A DNA stretch of 23,613 bases, taken from positions 1-23,613 of IMG/VR virus record IMGVR_UViG_3300036832_000728; one strand, 5' to 3'. Position 1 is the first letter of the stretch. Each line of letters starts with the position of its first letter. Positions 4,900-23,558 of the stretch are shown piece by piece. Origin of the DNA: a virus. Position numbers and translations under genes: made by a program. Under the pieces are notes generated by a model. That model searched no databases. It was given only the letters and a program-made list of their open reading frames with translations, and was not told the origin of the DNA.

Positions 4900-4923
4900 G
4901 GCGCAACCTCAGTGTTAGAGCCG

Positions 4924-4943
4924 AAAACCCCACTGTGGGTTTT
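4924..4943. promoter_or_regulatory. AAAACCC inverted repeat in the divergent control region
   Basis: AAAACCC at 4924-4930 and GGGTTTT at 4937-4943 form a perfect 7-bp inverted repeat around CACTGT. A further copy, AAAACCCACA at 4974-4983, matches the complement of TGTGGGTTTT at 4934-4943. One site lies between the two start codons and the other overlaps the expected rightward transcription start, which is where an operator pair for a regulator would sit. A simple hairpin is the alternative. Confidence 0.5.
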
Positions 4944-4944
4944 G

Positions 4945-4973
4945 TTGCCCGTTCGACCAGTCATAGGTACACT
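4945..4973 (+). promoter_or_regulatory. Putative rightward promoter for the integrase transcript
   Basis: TTGCCC at 4945-4950 and TACACT at 4968-4973 are separated by 17 bp, a good match to actinobacterial housekeeping promoters. Initiation would fall near 4980, about 30 bases before the ATG at 5010. The third AAAACCC-type half-site at 4974-4983 would overlap the start point, so a bound repressor could block it. Confidence 0.45.
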
Positions 4974-5009
4974 AAAACCCACATGACCCCGACGGAAGGA
5001 AACACGGCA

Positions 5010-5393
5010 ATGGGTAAGACAGTGGACGAGTCCACGTTGGTTGTCCTGGAGTGGTGGGACGGCGTGACCGGCATGTGGGCGCAAGCGGGAGAGTTCGACA
5101 CGCGTGAGGAGGCCGAGGCCCGGGCCGCCGAACTCGACCTGGAAAATCTGGCGTCCTATCTGGCGGCGGGTGAGCGTGCCGTGTGGCGCACCGTCACGAC
5201 CATCGTGGAGGCCGTACGGCCGCGGTGGAAATGTGAGCGGCGCGGGTTCCACACGACCGGCGCCCTCTACGTTTCGCGTACGCGTGACGGTTGGGAATAC
5301 GGCACGGTGGAGGACGGCGAGTTGTTCCGCGTTGGTGAAACGTCCCGGCCGATTGCGCGGGCGAAAGAATTGGCCGAGAGAGAGGTGGTCTAG
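5010..5393 (+). CDS. Unknown protein co-transcribed with the integrase
   Basis: 127 aa. ATG at 5010 is preceded by GGAAGGA with a 9-base spacer; an in-frame ATG at 4983 has no ribosome-binding sequence and would be nearly leaderless. The protein contains LVVLEWWDG, an acidic/Ala-rich helix near residues 30-50, then VRPRWKCERRGFHTTG and DGWEYGTVEDGELF, ending in a charged helix. No domain recognised. Its TAG stop is directly followed by the integrase TTG start, so the two genes are one translational unit. Recombination directionality factors of serine integrases are diverse and often adjacent to the integrase, so this is one of two candidates in the window; there is no direct evidence. Confidence 0.72.
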   Translation: MGKTVDESTLVVLEWWDGVTGMWAQAGEFDTREEAEARAAELDLENLASYLAAGERAVWRTVTTIVEAVRPRWKCERRGFHTTGALYVSRTRDGWEYGTVEDGELFRVGETSRPIARAKELAEREVV

Positions 5394-6743
5394 TTGGCCG
5401 CCTCTCGCGTCATCGGCATTGTCCGCGTGTCCCGCACGAAGGGCGTCGACATCGTGTCCCCGGGTGAGCAACGCGCCCGCCTTACCCAGTGGGCGAAGGA
5501 CAACCGCCACGACCTCGTTGAGGTCATGGAGGAGTTGGACGTTTCCGGCGGCACACCGCTCGCGCGGCGTAAGGGTTTGCTCCACGCCGTCGAGACCGTT
5601 GAGCGCGGCGGCGCCGACGTCATTGTGGCTTCCTACTTCGACCGGGTGTTCCGCTCGCTCGCCGTCCAAGCGGAGGTCATCGGCCGCGTGGAGGCCGCGG
5701 GCGGAAAGGTGTTTGCGTTGGACATCGGCCAGGTGTCCAACGCCACCGCGACCCAGTGGATGAGCAACACCTTTATCGGCACGATGGCGGAATACATGCG
5801 CCGGACGACCGCGGAGCGGACGCACGAATCCAAGGTGGCCGCCGTCATGCGCGGCGTGGCGCCGTATCCGCGCCTGCCTCTCGGTGTCCGCAAGAACGAG
5901 ACCACCGGCCGGGTTGAGCCGGACCCGGCGACCCGCGCCCTCGTCCTGGAGGCGTTCCGGATGAGGGCCAACGGTTCCACGCGGGCGGCCATCCGTGACT
6001 ACCTGATTGCGAACGGGCACACGCTCCTCCTTCGCACGATCACCGTCATGTTGGCCAATCGCCTCTACCTCGGTGAACTGGCCTTTGGTGACACGGTGAA
6101 CCCGGACGCGTGCGAGCCCATCGTTCCGGCGGCCCTGTTCCGGAAGGTTCAAACCATGTCGGTCCTGGCGGGACGTAAGGCTAAATCCGACCGCCTCCTG
6201 GCCCGCCTCGGAATCCTCCGGTGTGCCGGGTGTGACGGCCGCATGGTCGTTTTCACTTCCAAGCAACGCAACGGCACGTTGTCCATCGGCTACCGGTGCG
6301 GCAATAAAGAAACGTGCACGGAGCGCGCGGGCATCAACGCCGAGTGGATTGAGGAGGTGGCCCTTACGGCGACCCAGGAGGCGTTGCGCAAGTTTCAAGG
6401 GCGCGGCTCCAACGCCGTCAAGATCGAGGCGGCACGGGCGCGGCGTGACGGCGCCGTGGCGGCCCTGGAGGCGGCCGTGGAGGCGTTTGACGGCCTCGGA
6501 GTGGCGGCGGCCAAATCCAAGCTAGGGCGCCTCCAGGTGGAGGCGGACGCGGCCGCGGCGGCGTACGAGGAACTACTCGGCTCCACGGATTCGATCTTGC
6601 GCGCGTCGGTCGATGATTTTGACCGGGCGACCGCGGATGAGCAACGTCGCTTCGTGCGCTACGCGCTTGACCGGATCAAGGTCCGCAAGCATGGAGTCGG
6701 CGGCGACCGGGTGGAGGTCACGTTGGCTAACGCCGTCCTCTAG
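5394..6743 (+). CDS. int: Large serine recombinase (phage integrase)
   Basis: 449 aa, TTG start at 5394 immediately after the previous stop, with a GAGAGAGAGG ribosome-binding sequence. Catalytic domain: VRVS with nucleophile Ser13, SPGEQR near 22-27, and the YFDRVFRS block with Asp83, Arg84 and Arg87. A long helix (MSNTFIGTMAEYMRRTTAERTHE, residues about 123-145) leads to the recombinase domain with PYPRLPLGVRKN. A zinc ribbon follows: CAGC at 277-280 and Cys302/Cys308. Residues about 340-395 are an Ala/Glu-rich coiled coil, as in other large serine integrases. It should join phage attP and host attB without host factors. The length is at the short end for the class. The attP partner could not be fixed from sequence alone. 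Confidence 0.95.
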   Translation: MAASRVIGIVRVSRTKGVDIVSPGEQRARLTQWAKDNRHDLVEVMEELDVSGGTPLARRKGLLHAVETVERGGADVIVASYFDRVFRSLAVQAEVIGRVEAAGGKVFALDIGQVSNATATQWMSNTFIGTMAEYMRRTTAERTHESKVAAVMRGVAPYPRLPLGVRKNETTGRVEPDPATRALVLEAFRMRANGSTRAAIRDYLIANGHTLLLRTITVMLANRLYLGELAFGDTVNPDACEPIVPAALFRKVQTMSVLAGRKAKSDRLLARLGILRCAGCDGRMVVFTSKQRNGTLSIGYRCGNKETCTERAGINAEWIEEVALTATQEALRKFQGRGSNAVKIEAARARRDGAVAALEAAVEAFDGLGVAAAKSKLGRLQVEADAAAAAYEELLGSTDSILRASVDDFDRATADEQRRFVRYALDRIKVRKHGVGGDRVEVTLANAVL

Positions 6744-6861
6744 CAACCGTTGGGCGAAGCGGTCGAACGCGTCCTGGATTTCCGGGTCGGGTTCGGCCGC
6801 TTTTGTCGTTCGTCTGGCCGTCATGGGTGGGTCATACCGCACCCGCGGCGGCGGCGATGTT

Positions 6862-6911
6862 GTGTCTCACCGTGTCCGCCCGTGTCTCGCCGGGTCACAC
6901 CGTGTCAATCG
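6862..6911 (+). repeat. Five tandem 10-bp repeats (GTGTC-NNNCC)
   Basis: Consecutive units are GTGTCTCACC, GTGTCCGCCC, GTGTCTCGCC, GGGTCACACC and GTGTCAATCG. The GTGTC half is kept in four units and changed by one base in the fourth; the last two bases are CC in four units. The period is one DNA helical turn, so all sites face the same side. This is the layout of a cooperative binding array for a small DNA-binding protein, with the HTH gene starting 87 bp downstream. Confidence 0.82.
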
Positions 6912-6924
6912 CGCACTCTTCATT

Positions 6925-6963
6925 ACTCCGCGCAAATAGCGACTAAACCGTGCGCCGCGGAGT
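6925..6963. repeat. 8-bp inverted repeat ACTCCGCG ... CGCGGAGT
   Basis: ACTCCGCG at 6925-6932 and CGCGGAGT at 6956-6963 are perfect complements around a 23-base centre. The span (39 bp) is near that of serine-integrase sites, but the centre falls on a single base rather than a dinucleotide. It could instead be an operator or an mRNA leader hairpin for the HTH gene. Confidence 0.45.
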
Positions 6964-6997
6964 TTCGGATCGCGCCGCCACGTGGGAGGGTCCAAAC

Positions 6998-7237
6998 ATG
7001 GCAGGCGGCCACACTCCCGGCGGGGAGAGGTGGCTTACGTTGACCGAATCCGCGGCGCGGGCATCGGTAAGCCGTTCAACCCTCTACCGGGCGCGTGCGG
7101 CTGGCCGCCTGCCATTCCTCACCACGGCGTCCGGCCTCGTTCGGATTGTCCAATCGGACCTTGACGGGTGGGTGTTGGACGGGATGCCGACCGGGGACGG
7201 CGCCGCCGCGCGGCGGCCGCGGCACCCTCCACGCTAG
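6998..7237 (+). CDS. Small excisionase/MerR-like helix-turn-helix protein
   Basis: 79 aa from ATG at 6998-7000, with GGGAGG 8-13 bases upstream. LTLTESAARASVSRSTLYRARAAG followed by a short strand and hydrophobic LDGWVLDG is the HTH_17/excisionase (MerR-type) pattern: the Tyr-Arg-containing recognition helix is near residues 27-35, followed by a small wing (LVRIVQSDL). The C-terminal 15 residues are basic and Pro/Arg-rich. Such proteins bind short direct repeats and act as excisionases or transcription regulators. It lies just downstream of the five 10-bp repeats and on the integrase strand, so it may regulate the switch or control integrase direction. No classical repressor was found, so its exact role is open. 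Confidence 0.78.
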   Translation: MAGGHTPGGERWLTLTESAARASVSRSTLYRARAAGRLPFLTTASGLVRIVQSDLDGWVLDGMPTGDGAAARRPRHPPR

Positions 7238-7244
7238 GCGGCCG

Positions 7245-7339
7245 CGCCCGCCCGCCTCACGGTGTCAACGAGGGCGGGGCGGGTGCGGTCGTTCCCGGAG
7301 GGCGGGGCGGGTGACAGTCCCCCGACGGATCACCCGTCG
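7245..7339. terminator. GC-rich convergent intergenic region with repeats and hairpins
   Basis: Between the converging HTH gene and the late operon lie an imperfect stem (7245-7258 with 7270-7283, two bulges), two copies of a 16-bp sequence GAGGGCGGGGCGGGTG (7270-7285 and 7298-7313, period 28), and a perfect 6-bp stem CGACGG/CCGTCG (7323-7328 with 7334-7339) over the end of the membrane-protein gene. No T-tract follows any stem. Transcription termination from both sides is likely, but the form is not classical. Confidence 0.4.
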
Positions 7340-7548: not shown

Positions 7549-8454
7549 CTACGGCTCGCGGACACGCACGAACGCAATCGCGTAGGCCTCCCACTGGTTG
7601 CGTGTGCGCCGTTGCACCTCACCGCCATTGGAGTTGTTGGAGGCGGACGTGTTGCCCTCGATGGCCGTCCATTCGTTCGCGTTGCCGCCCTCAAAAATGC
7701 CGACGTGGTCGTAGTCGCCGCCGTCCCAGTCGTAACAAACCAGGTCGCCGGGGATCGGCGCCGTCGTGATTGACAACCCGTTACGGCCGTGGCGGGCGTC
7801 GTCCACGATGTACGGGACGTACGCGTACCGTTGGCCCTTCGCGAACGAGGGCGATCCGCCGAACGGGCCGACCTCAAACGCGTAGGTGCAAAACATCGCG
7901 CACCACGGTTGCCCGTCGGCGCCGTACCACGCGCCGAACGGTGTGCGGTTGGAGTTGGCGGGCGACTCCTTCGTCCCGAGCCATCGCGCGGCCTCCTGGA
8001 GTGCGGCGGCGCGCACGGTCGCCGCGGCCGGTGGCGCGTGAAACTTCGTGTAGGCCTCCGCAATCAGGTTTTGCGCGTTGGCGTCCATTGCCGGTTCGCC
8101 CGCGTGCGGGAGTCCGGCCGGTATCCGGATCGAGCGAAGGAGGTTGAACGTCGCCTCGCCAATGAACCCGGTGTCGGGCGTGATGTTTCCTTGGCGTTGC
8201 ACACCGGCGACGCCGGAGTCCTTGACGTTGCCGCCTGCCTTCCCGTGTGCGAACGCGTTGGAGTAGGCGCGGTCGAAGGTTTGCCATGGCCACCGTCCGG
8301 CGCGGGACACGGTGCGTTTGTACGCCTCGACGTCCGGGCCGTTGGACGAGGGCGTGTGTCCGGGCGCCGCGTCGGGCGGGTAGACGTTACGCGGGAACCC
8401 GAGCACGGGAACCATCGGCCCGCCCGGGTAGCCGTGTTCCCACCATTCACTCAT
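7549..8454 (-). CDS. Endolysin with CHAP amidase/peptidase domain
   Basis: 301 aa from ATG at 8452-8454, overlapping the preceding stop as ATGA; the upstream in-frame extension is Arg/Gly shadow sequence. Residues about 78-110 match a peptidoglycan-binding-1-like motif (GVAGVQRQ ... TGFIGEATFNLL). The C-terminal CHAP domain has the Cys-His-acid triad: Cys185 in QPWCAMFC, His250 in DYDHVGIF, and Glu266 with Asn268 in AIEGNT. CHAP enzymes cut amide bonds in the peptide part of peptidoglycan. There is no signal peptide, so export should depend on the adjacent membrane protein. The role is host lysis, which fits its place at the end of the late genes. Confidence 0.87.
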   Translation of the reverse strand: MSEWWEHGYPGGPMVPVLGFPRNVYPPDAAPGHTPSSNGPDVEAYKRTVSRAGRWPWQTFDRAYSNAFAHGKAGGNVKDSGVAGVQRQGNITPDTGFIGEATFNLLRSIRIPAGLPHAGEPAMDANAQNLIAEAYTKFHAPPAAATVRAAALQEAARWLGTKESPANSNRTPFGAWYGADGQPWCAMFCTYAFEVGPFGGSPSFAKGQRYAYVPYIVDDARHGRNGLSITTAPIPGDLVCYDWDGGDYDHVGIFEGGNANEWTAIEGNTSASNNSNGGEVQRRTRNQWEAYAIAFVRVREP

Positions 8455-21785: not shown

Positions 21786-23558
21786 TCAGTAGACGGCGGG
21801 CAACCTGACCGGCCGGTGTGCGGCCGCCACCGCCCACACGGCCGCCTTGACCAAATGCGGCGCCGCGCCGCCCGCGATCCGCAACCCGCTCGCGGACCCC
21901 CGCACCCGCGCCGCCTTGATTGCGTCATCGAGCGCGAACGTCCGTTGGTCGTGAACCAACATCGCGTCGGCGGCCAGGTCACGGAACACCGCGAGCCCGT
22001 TGCGCGTGTCCGCGCCCGCGGCCGCCTTCGGCCGCGGTGAGAGGTCGGGCGGCGCCCGGTCGAGCAGGGACGCGCCCACCTGGATCGAGCGCACCTGGCG
22101 CCACTCCGCGAGCCGTTGCACATCACCCATCGCCGCATCCCAGTTTTTGCACAACCACCCGTCGACCTCGATCCGCCCGTACCGGTCACGGGAGGCCGCG
22201 GCCACCGCGGCGCCGCGCCCGAAGTCATCCTCGACCGCCACGTAAATCGGGCCGTCTGTCTCGACGTCCGCCTCCGCCAACCCGGCCCACATGCCCGCCG
22301 GTAGCAACTCCTCCAACGGCCCGCCCGCCGGTGTCAACGTGCGCGGCCATTGGTTCAACCATTGCGCCCGGAATGACGCCTCCGGGTCGGGTTCCTCCGG
22401 GTCCTCAATTTCACCGGCGCGCATCGCCTCCAACTTGCGCGCGATCAACCGCTCGCGTTGCGGCGTCCAATGCGGCGACGCCAACCGCCACCCGTCCCGG
22501 TCGTCCACCTGGAGGACACGCGGCACCGACCACTCCACGATCAGGTCACCGGCGCCGGACTCCAACGCCGTCAACGCACCCGCCCGCCGCTCCAACATCA
22601 ACGCCGTCGACAACCGGTGCGCCGTGGACACGAGCAGGAGTTGCGGTTGCAACCGCTCCGTCATGGTCGGCTCCAACCCTTCGTCCACCGAGGACGAGCG
22701 CACCTTCCAACCCTCATCGACGGCGGCCATCCCAACCGAGTAGCCGTAGACGGCCTCTTTCGCGCGAAGCATCCACCGCGACCCGTCCGGGAGGTGCTCG
22801 ATTTCCTCCTGGCCGTTCACCTCACGCACCTTGTAAAGCGCCGGTCGCGCCTTCGCCCAATAACGCGCGGGCCGTTGCACCTCCTTGCAAATCGCGATGT
22901 CCTTGCCCGTATGCATCACGTCTTGCGGTTCCCCGAACCGGACGCCTTGGTGGATGCGCCACAACATCAACTCGCGCAACAACCACGACTTGCCCAACTG
23001 GCGCGCCATGCTCAAAACCATCGCCGTCCACACAAGCGCGCCCGCGTCGTCCACCTCCAACAACCGGGTCGCAACGAGCCGTTGCCACCACCGCAACTCC
23101 CGCCCGGTGCGCGCATCCGACCACGCCACGAACTCCGCCCCGAGCGAGTCCACGGCGCGCGGGTGCGGCGCCGTCATGTAGCGCGGCCAGGTCGCGTCGG
23201 GCGGCGGAACCCGCAACGGCGCAATCCAAGGAACGTTCCACCGCTCATCGTCGGCGGCGATCCCGTCCGCCTCCGGTTCCTCCTCCTCCGCGACGGCCGC
23301 CCACCTGGAGTTCGTGACCGCGGCGCCGCGCGTGCCGCCCGCGGAGCGGTTGCAAAACGCGTGTTCCGGTCCGGAGTAGCGGGAGCGGTCACCGTCCACG
23401 TGGCCCATGTCCCACTCTTCGTTCGGCGCGATCAGTTCACCGCACCGGGCGCACCGGACGCCGCCCGCGAGCACTAGCGGCGCGTGCGCGGCCCGGATGC
23501 GTTGGTGCCGTGTGCCGTAGCCGCGATCCGCGGAGGACGTGGGCGCCCGGGCCGCCAT
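21786..23558 (-). CDS. terL: Terminase large subunit with fused N-terminal HNH nuclease domain
   Basis: 590 aa from ATG at 23556-23558. Residues about 12-75 are an HNH endonuclease domain of the phage packaging type: RGYGTRHQRIR, zinc Cys pair CARC at 36-39, WDMGH with His53, DGDRSRYSGPEH and the CNR block (His66, Cys69, Asn70). After a 30-residue acidic linker comes the packaging motor: PHPRAVDSLGAEFVAW, Walker A-like SMARQLGKS (183-191), Walker B MAAVDE (Asp281, Glu282) and coupling motif LLLVSTAH (307-314). The nuclease domain follows with VAVEDDFGRG (Asp444/Asp445) and a second acidic pair Asp544/Asp545. It cuts and pumps DNA into the head. In related phages HNH is usually a separate gene next to terminase; here one frame joins both. 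Confidence 0.92.
   Translation of the reverse strand: MAARAPTSSADRGYGTRHQRIRAAHAPLVLAGGVRCARCGELIAPNEEWDMGHVDGDRSRYSGPEHAFCNRSAGGTRGAAVTNSRWAAVAEEEEPEADGIAADDERWNVPWIAPLRVPPPDATWPRYMTAPHPRAVDSLGAEFVAWSDARTGRELRWWQRLVATRLLEVDDAGALVWTAMVLSMARQLGKSWLLRELMLWRIHQGVRFGEPQDVMHTGKDIAICKEVQRPARYWAKARPALYKVREVNGQEEIEHLPDGSRWMLRAKEAVYGYSVGMAAVDEGWKVRSSSVDEGLEPTMTERLQPQLLLVSTAHRLSTALMLERRAGALTALESGAGDLIVEWSVPRVLQVDDRDGWRLASPHWTPQRERLIARKLEAMRAGEIEDPEEPDPEASFRAQWLNQWPRTLTPAGGPLEELLPAGMWAGLAEADVETDGPIYVAVEDDFGRGAAVAAASRDRYGRIEVDGWLCKNWDAAMGDVQRLAEWRQVRSIQVGASLLDRAPPDLSPRPKAAAGADTRNGLAVFRDLAADAMLVHDQRTFALDDAIKAARVRGSASGLRIAGGAAPHLVKAAVWAVAAAHRPVRLPAVY

Follow-up and report, generated by a model that had tools for sequence, protein, structure and literature searches.

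A helically phased array of 10-bp direct repeats between a serine integrase gene and an excisionase-like HTH gene is a candidate operator in an actinobacterial phage

The stretch of DNA analyzed here, called the window below, is a 23,613-base IMG/VR virus record and represents a fragment of an uncultured actinobacterial tailed phage. Its structural and lysis genes run leftward, an integrase gene (int) and a small helix-turn-helix (HTH) gene run rightward, and exonuclease and RecT genes run leftward again. The main features of the int-HTH region are collected in Table 1. The integrase contains Resolvase (PF00239), Recombinase (PF07508) and zinc-ribbon (PF13408) domains and belongs to the large serine integrases. 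The imperfect dyad that follows int is best read as the int terminator. With its 2-bp centre and its position beside int, this dyad was also considered as attP, but it was rejected because of its strong hairpin and U-run and because the dyad at 4934-4983 has a counterpart in a related contig (L327). Elsewhere in the window, one open frame at 21786-23558 encodes a terminase large subunit with an N-terminal HNH endonuclease domain (phrog_9 and phrog_1808), and the related contigs L207 and L211 align with it over equal length.

Table 1. Positions of the features in and around the repeat array
Feature	Coordinates	Strand	Remarks
Predicted attP, 50-bp imperfect dyad TGTGGGTTTTGTTGCCCGTTCGAC-CA-GTCATAGGTACACTAAAACCCACA	4934-4983	.	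Precedes the int operon
Large serine integrase, 449 aa	5394-6743	+	TTG start immediately follows the preceding gene's stop codon
Minus-strand ORF, 89 aa	6573-6842	-	Start GTG 6842 or ATG 6824; overlaps the 3' end of int
Imperfect dyad after int	6757-6802	.	RNA hairpin z -5.3, then TTTT
Near-copy GGGTCATACC, 9/10 identical to unit 4	6829-6838	+	Isolated
Array unit 1 GTGTCTCACC	6862-6871	+	
Array unit 2 GTGTCCGCCC	6872-6881	+	
Array unit 3 GTGTCTCGCC	6882-6891	+	
Array unit 4 GGGTCACACC	6892-6901	+	
Array unit 5 GTGTCAATCG	6902-6911	+	
CGCAAATAGCG 11-mer	6931-6941	+	In A+T-richer DNA separating the array from the HTH gene
HTH_17 winged-helix protein, Xis/BldC type, 79 aa	6998-7237	+	GGGAGG precedes the ATG

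A preliminary description of this DNA had reported five GTGTC-based units, one every 10 bp, between the integrase and an excisionase/MerR-like HTH gene, with no coding gene to explain them. Our analysis agrees on each point. Five direct-repeat units stand in a register of exactly 10 bp at 6862-6911, with the core GTGTC in four units and GGGTC in unit 4, and positions 9 and 10 are CC in units 1 to 4. No sixth unit was found on the left or right flank. The array lies between the int stop codon at 6743 and the HTH start codon at 6998. The two plus-strand ORFs that cross it (6613-6939 and 6750-7043) are unsupported overlapping frames, and a coding repeat was therefore rejected. An RNA element was also rejected, with no match in Rfam and folding equal to that of shuffled sequences (z of -0.2 and -0.7 for the two strands). 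The near-copy GGGTCATACC lies 33 bp upstream of unit 1 and outside the 10-bp register; it may be a chance match, since about 20 single matches as good or better occur in the window.

Nowhere else in the 23.6-kb window did five copies of one 5-mer occur at a single period with up to one mismatch, whichever period from 6 to 30 was taken. A comparable period-10 run appeared in 0 of 300 dinucleotide shuffles, and a single run was obtained when periods 8 to 22 were pooled. The lag-10 identity score (27/40) is a looser test than the core-run test and gave a less extreme result (P ~0.007 for lag 10, 0.07 across lags 8-22). When only the 1 kb after int was considered, P was ~0.0003 for period 10 and 0.001-0.003 for periods 9-11, and Tandem Repeats Finder also called a repeat at 6862-6906. 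The 10-bp array is real and helically phased, and its units are asymmetric direct repeats about one helical turn apart, as in arrays of the Xis/Apl type. The spacers had a mean identity of 44%, whereas the cores were kept, which argues against a recent duplication.

On its left side, 19-37 bp separate the array from the start codon of the minus-strand ORF, depending on which start is taken. This ORF showed neither a family match nor a recognizable DNA-binding domain. Short ORFs resembling it, with an RLLxE-like stretch, were found after int in L318, L323, L327 and L247, indicating that it is probably a real divergent gene. On its right side, the array ends 87 bp upstream of the HTH start codon. 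The array is thus located within a divergent control region. The 11-mer CGCAAATAGCG is also present in the related contig L323, 46 bp upstream of the HTH start codon there (P ~0.005 by simulation), and could be a promoter or a shared control element.

The HTH protein matched PF12728 (2e-7) and phrog_66, annotated as 'excisionase and transcriptional regulator'. A profile search of the PDB with this protein and ten relatives gave BldC (6ama/6amk, E of 1e-12), Pukovnik Xis (4j2n, 4e-10) and RdfS (8dgl, 1e-5). An AlphaFold model had pLDDT values above 90 over approximately residues 10-60, and it is consistent with the HTH_17 winged-helix fold of the BldC family. The top Foldseek match of the model was the BldC-DNA complex, and Pukovnik Xis could be superimposed with an RMSD of 1.1-1.2 Å; the Z score of ~7 means that this match speaks for the fold only. 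Both profile and fold searches place the protein among the winged helices of the BldC/Xis type, in line with the earlier excisionase/MerR-like assignment. A small winged-HTH protein of Xis/MerR-like fold is encoded beside the repeats, as it is beside arrays of the Xis/Apl type. However, reading of the alignments showed that the BldC core residues F21, W31 and L43 (numbering of PMC5859096) correspond to A22, A32 and A44 in the 79-aa protein. Alanines at these head-to-tail core positions would speak against an HTH filament.

We then compared the locus with its relatives. The contigs nearest to the window by tail and terminase genes were L206-L211 (44-60% identity). In L206, L208 and L210, the ORF at the corresponding place reads as a tyrosine-type integrase, and the lysis and recombination modules on its two sides are those that flank window 4900-7300. 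These three contigs have no serine integrase, no HTH_17 protein above the cut-off and no array, so the array travels with an int-HTH cassette that is exchanged wholesale. A search with an alignment of integrases from genomes reached 11 viral contigs, and four of them (L318, L321, L323 and L327) belong to the phage group of the window. The serine integrase of L323 is 38% identical to that of the window, and the gene order is int, an HTH_17 gene on the minus strand, an HTH gene on the plus strand and the lysis genes. The plus-strand HTH protein is an orthologue of the 79-aa protein, with 32% identity and a C-terminal PxGDG common to both. The L323 interval 7751-7933 contains a period-10 array, CCGGAGCGCA CTGGCGCGCA CCTGCGCGCA, with the core GCGCA. 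It is the best period-10 run in the 13-kb locus (P ~0.002, or 0.013 over periods 9-11). As a separate observation, the L323 genes at 7559-7750 and 7934-8152 are divergent and both HTH_17-like, with the array between them in one control region, and could have arisen by duplication of one regulator.

A further array, CTTTGCGCAG GTATGCGCGG CTTTGCGGAG CTTTTTGCCG, follows int in the prophage-like contig L246 (integrase 44% identical, P ~0.0007); this contig ends 50 bp beyond the array, before any following gene. Among 19 int-downstream regions, period 10 reached P<=0.01 in three, periods 7, 8, 9, 11 and 13 in none, and period 12, a coding-type period, in two. L318 and L321 also have serine integrases, but their HTH protein is from another family and they lack an array. 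No period-10 array accompanied the serine integrase homologues in genomes, apart from L246. Single-sequence scans of viral contigs, and for the integrase also of genome contigs, found no close relative of either protein. In 300-400 actinobacterial genomes, the HTH homologues were generic HTH_17 proteins without arrays. The control region of BlueFeather gp20, an HTH protein with 48% identity to that of the window over 46 aa, is divergent but contains no period-10 array, and no phage matched the window at the DNA level. The spacing is thus kept in the one clear orthologue-bearing relative, L323. The preliminary description had looked to relatives for conservation of both the period and GTGTC. 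The period is kept, but the GTGTC core is not, L323 having GCGCA. What is kept between relatives is the geometry of the units and not their letters. Since the unit differs between relatives, covariation gives no support for recognition of the array by the HTH protein.

We favour, with a probability of about 0.57, an operator reading, in which the adjacent HTH protein assembles head to tail on the array and regulates its own control region. One winged-HTH monomer would bind each 10-bp unit, head to tail along one face of the DNA. The binding would be cooperative and would bend the DNA, and the bound protein would regulate the region between the minus-strand gene and its own gene, as Apl and BldC do. 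The analysis establishes the array, its exact period and position, the HTH fold and the recurrence of the period in a relative, and from these we infer HTH binding, cooperativity, promoter control and any directionality-factor role. Asymmetric direct repeats are the arrangement that head-to-tail monomers need, which supports an operator. An HTH operator carrying a one-face filament was one of three options in the preliminary description, and it is the best supported of them, on the basis of the fold, the group of proteins with one-turn repeats and the period in L323. However, no sigma-70-like promoter was found on either side of the array, which counts against an operator.

GTGTC arrays also occur elsewhere. 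A survey of contigs gave 84 at period 10 and at least 120 at period 11. A universal phage motif was considered and rejected, as these were mostly tandem repeats of identical units together with one marine 11-bp family. The latter, GTGTCGGCAGG / GTGTCGCAAGG, was seen in many marine-type contigs (L086-L205); some of them carry it twice, and both orientations occur (e.g. L117, L140 and L203). Decameric GTGTC/GACAC arrays were located in or beside genes for replication initiators, helicase loaders and primases (L003, L014, L019, L049 and L057; L004, L029, L065 and L078; L262-L264). Those in the replication genes of unrelated phages are probably in-gene origins.

These replication-gene arrays bear on another option of the preliminary description, iterons of a plasmid-like maintenance origin. 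In this reading, the repeats would be a replication origin bound by the phage's initiator, with the initiator gene beyond the ends of the fragment. It is weaker than the operator and we consider it unlikely. The period-10 GTGTC/GACAC arrays inside replication genes of unrelated phage contigs favour it. Those of L003, L014 and L004 lie in DnaD/O-like initiators (phrog_1701, 3729 and 270), that of L262 in an O-like initiator, and those of L263 and L264 in or beside primase-polymerases; the units of L262-L264, GTGTCnnrCC, are the nearest to those of the window. However, the genes that flank the array in the window, an incomplete fragment, include none for replication, and the array occupies the control region of an int-HTH cassette that is swapped as one block. 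No clearly A+T-rich stretch for melting is apparent, the minimum being ~52% GC (50-bp window, 6900-6949) against a mean of 66%. Furthermore, GTGTC is only weakly enriched: a scrambled 5-mer of matched composition, CTGTG, gave arrays in 54 contigs compared to 84, and little weight can be placed on GTGTC as a general motif.

The array could instead be the operator of another regulator, such as the minus-strand product or a phage immunity repressor whose gene is beyond the fragment, or could mainly control the minus-strand gene. The short distance to the start of the minus-strand ORF is consistent with this, as is the second HTH_17 gene at the corresponding divergent position in L323. However, usual repressors are dimers that bind palindromes, and asymmetric direct repeats spaced by one turn mark the Xis/BldC group. 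In addition, the minus-strand ORF lacks a recognizable DNA-binding domain. Control by another protein is therefore quite unlikely in our estimate.

The remaining option of the preliminary description was an excision-control site adjacent to attP. At such an accessory site, an Xis-type protein would bend the DNA and set the direction of recombination. For serine integrases, ~50 bp of att DNA is enough, and directionality factors generally act on the integrase and not via DNA arrays. The likely attP is the dyad at 4934-4983, which has perfect 10-bp outer arms and is positioned upstream of the small gene that precedes int. In L327, a similar dyad, also with a CA centre, occupies the corresponding place (5668-5717). 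The array does not overlap the predicted attP; the two are 1.9 kb apart, on opposite sides of int. A PWM scan found no second array near this attP, which is itself a prediction, and serine-integrase directionality factors may need none. If the prediction is right, this distance and the missing second array disfavour a role of the array as an excision site, and adjacency to attP is not supported. On the other hand, the array type and the protein fold are excisionase-like and the integrase gene adjoins, and a small Xis-like directionality factor working with a serine integrase has a precedent in phiRv1 (Rv1584c, 73 aa; PMC4111918). We regard an accessory excision site as very unlikely. As to host sites, related serine integrases in four genome contigs (L247, L248, L249 and L251) lie inside or at the start of a bcp (peroxiredoxin) gene, near the VVLYFYPKAD codons, which looks like attB, and the neighbour of the L246 integrase is a miaB-like gene.

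A functionless array, arisen by chance or as a decayed tandem duplication, would fit the marginal whole-window value over many lags (0.07) and the frequency of 10-bp tandem repeats formed by duplication among contigs, but it is highly improbable given the kept cores with divergent spacers, the strict core test (<1/300) and the recurrence of period-10 arrays at the corresponding place in relatives.

The operator reading can be extended. The HTH protein might serve the serine integrase as its directionality factor and also form filaments as an operator protein, coupling excision of the cassette with its transcription through the array; we put this forward tentatively and think it rather unlikely. 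If true, the phage would combine a serine integrase with a dual regulator like Apl, and between relatives the array unit would change in step with the protein under a constant 10-bp geometry. It is difficult to recognize directionality factors of serine integrases from sequence, and such factors are wanted as tools. A phased array of this kind next to an Xis-like gene may serve as a DNA signature for them, or at least for a phage control switch. It would also illustrate a geometric rule, one monomer per turn, that is kept while the site sequence changes.

The array and its HTH protein can be compared with known systems. Apl of coliphage 186, both a directionality factor and a lysis-lysogeny regulator, binds direct repeats spaced by 10-11 bp. 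Five of these repeats lie at attP and seven between the early promoters; binding is cooperative and bends the DNA, and the head-to-tail, one-turn mode was proposed to be universal for the Xis/Apl group (PMC7498355). The window resembles this system in its small HTH protein, its operator-like direct repeats one turn apart and their location in a control region. However, 186 has a tyrosine integrase and the phage of the window a serine recombinase, and the 186 repeats occur both at attP and at promoters, whereas the predicted attP of the window has no array. Apl is also a sequence outlier within its group. BldC of Streptomyces, the best structural match to the 79-aa protein within the HTH_17 fold, forms head-to-tail filaments on 9-bp direct repeats in promoters (PMC5859096). 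Its AATTxxxxC sites are A+T-rich and span 9 bp, as opposed to 10 bp with a GTGTC core in the window, and its oligomer-core residues are not kept. Mycobacteriophage Pukovnik Xis (4j2n) and RdfS of Mesorhizobium ICEs (8dgl) share the HTH_17 fold and form filaments. Pukovnik Xis has tandem sites one turn apart; RdfS oligomerizes, and a clear sequence motif is not apparent for it (PMC11963761). In contrast to the phage of the window, their partners are tyrosine integrases, and they act at attP arms. Rv1584c of phiRv1 is likewise small and named as an Xis, and it works with a large serine integrase. The design itself, of the excisionase/BldC type, is known, and its pairing with a serine integrase is the unusual point.
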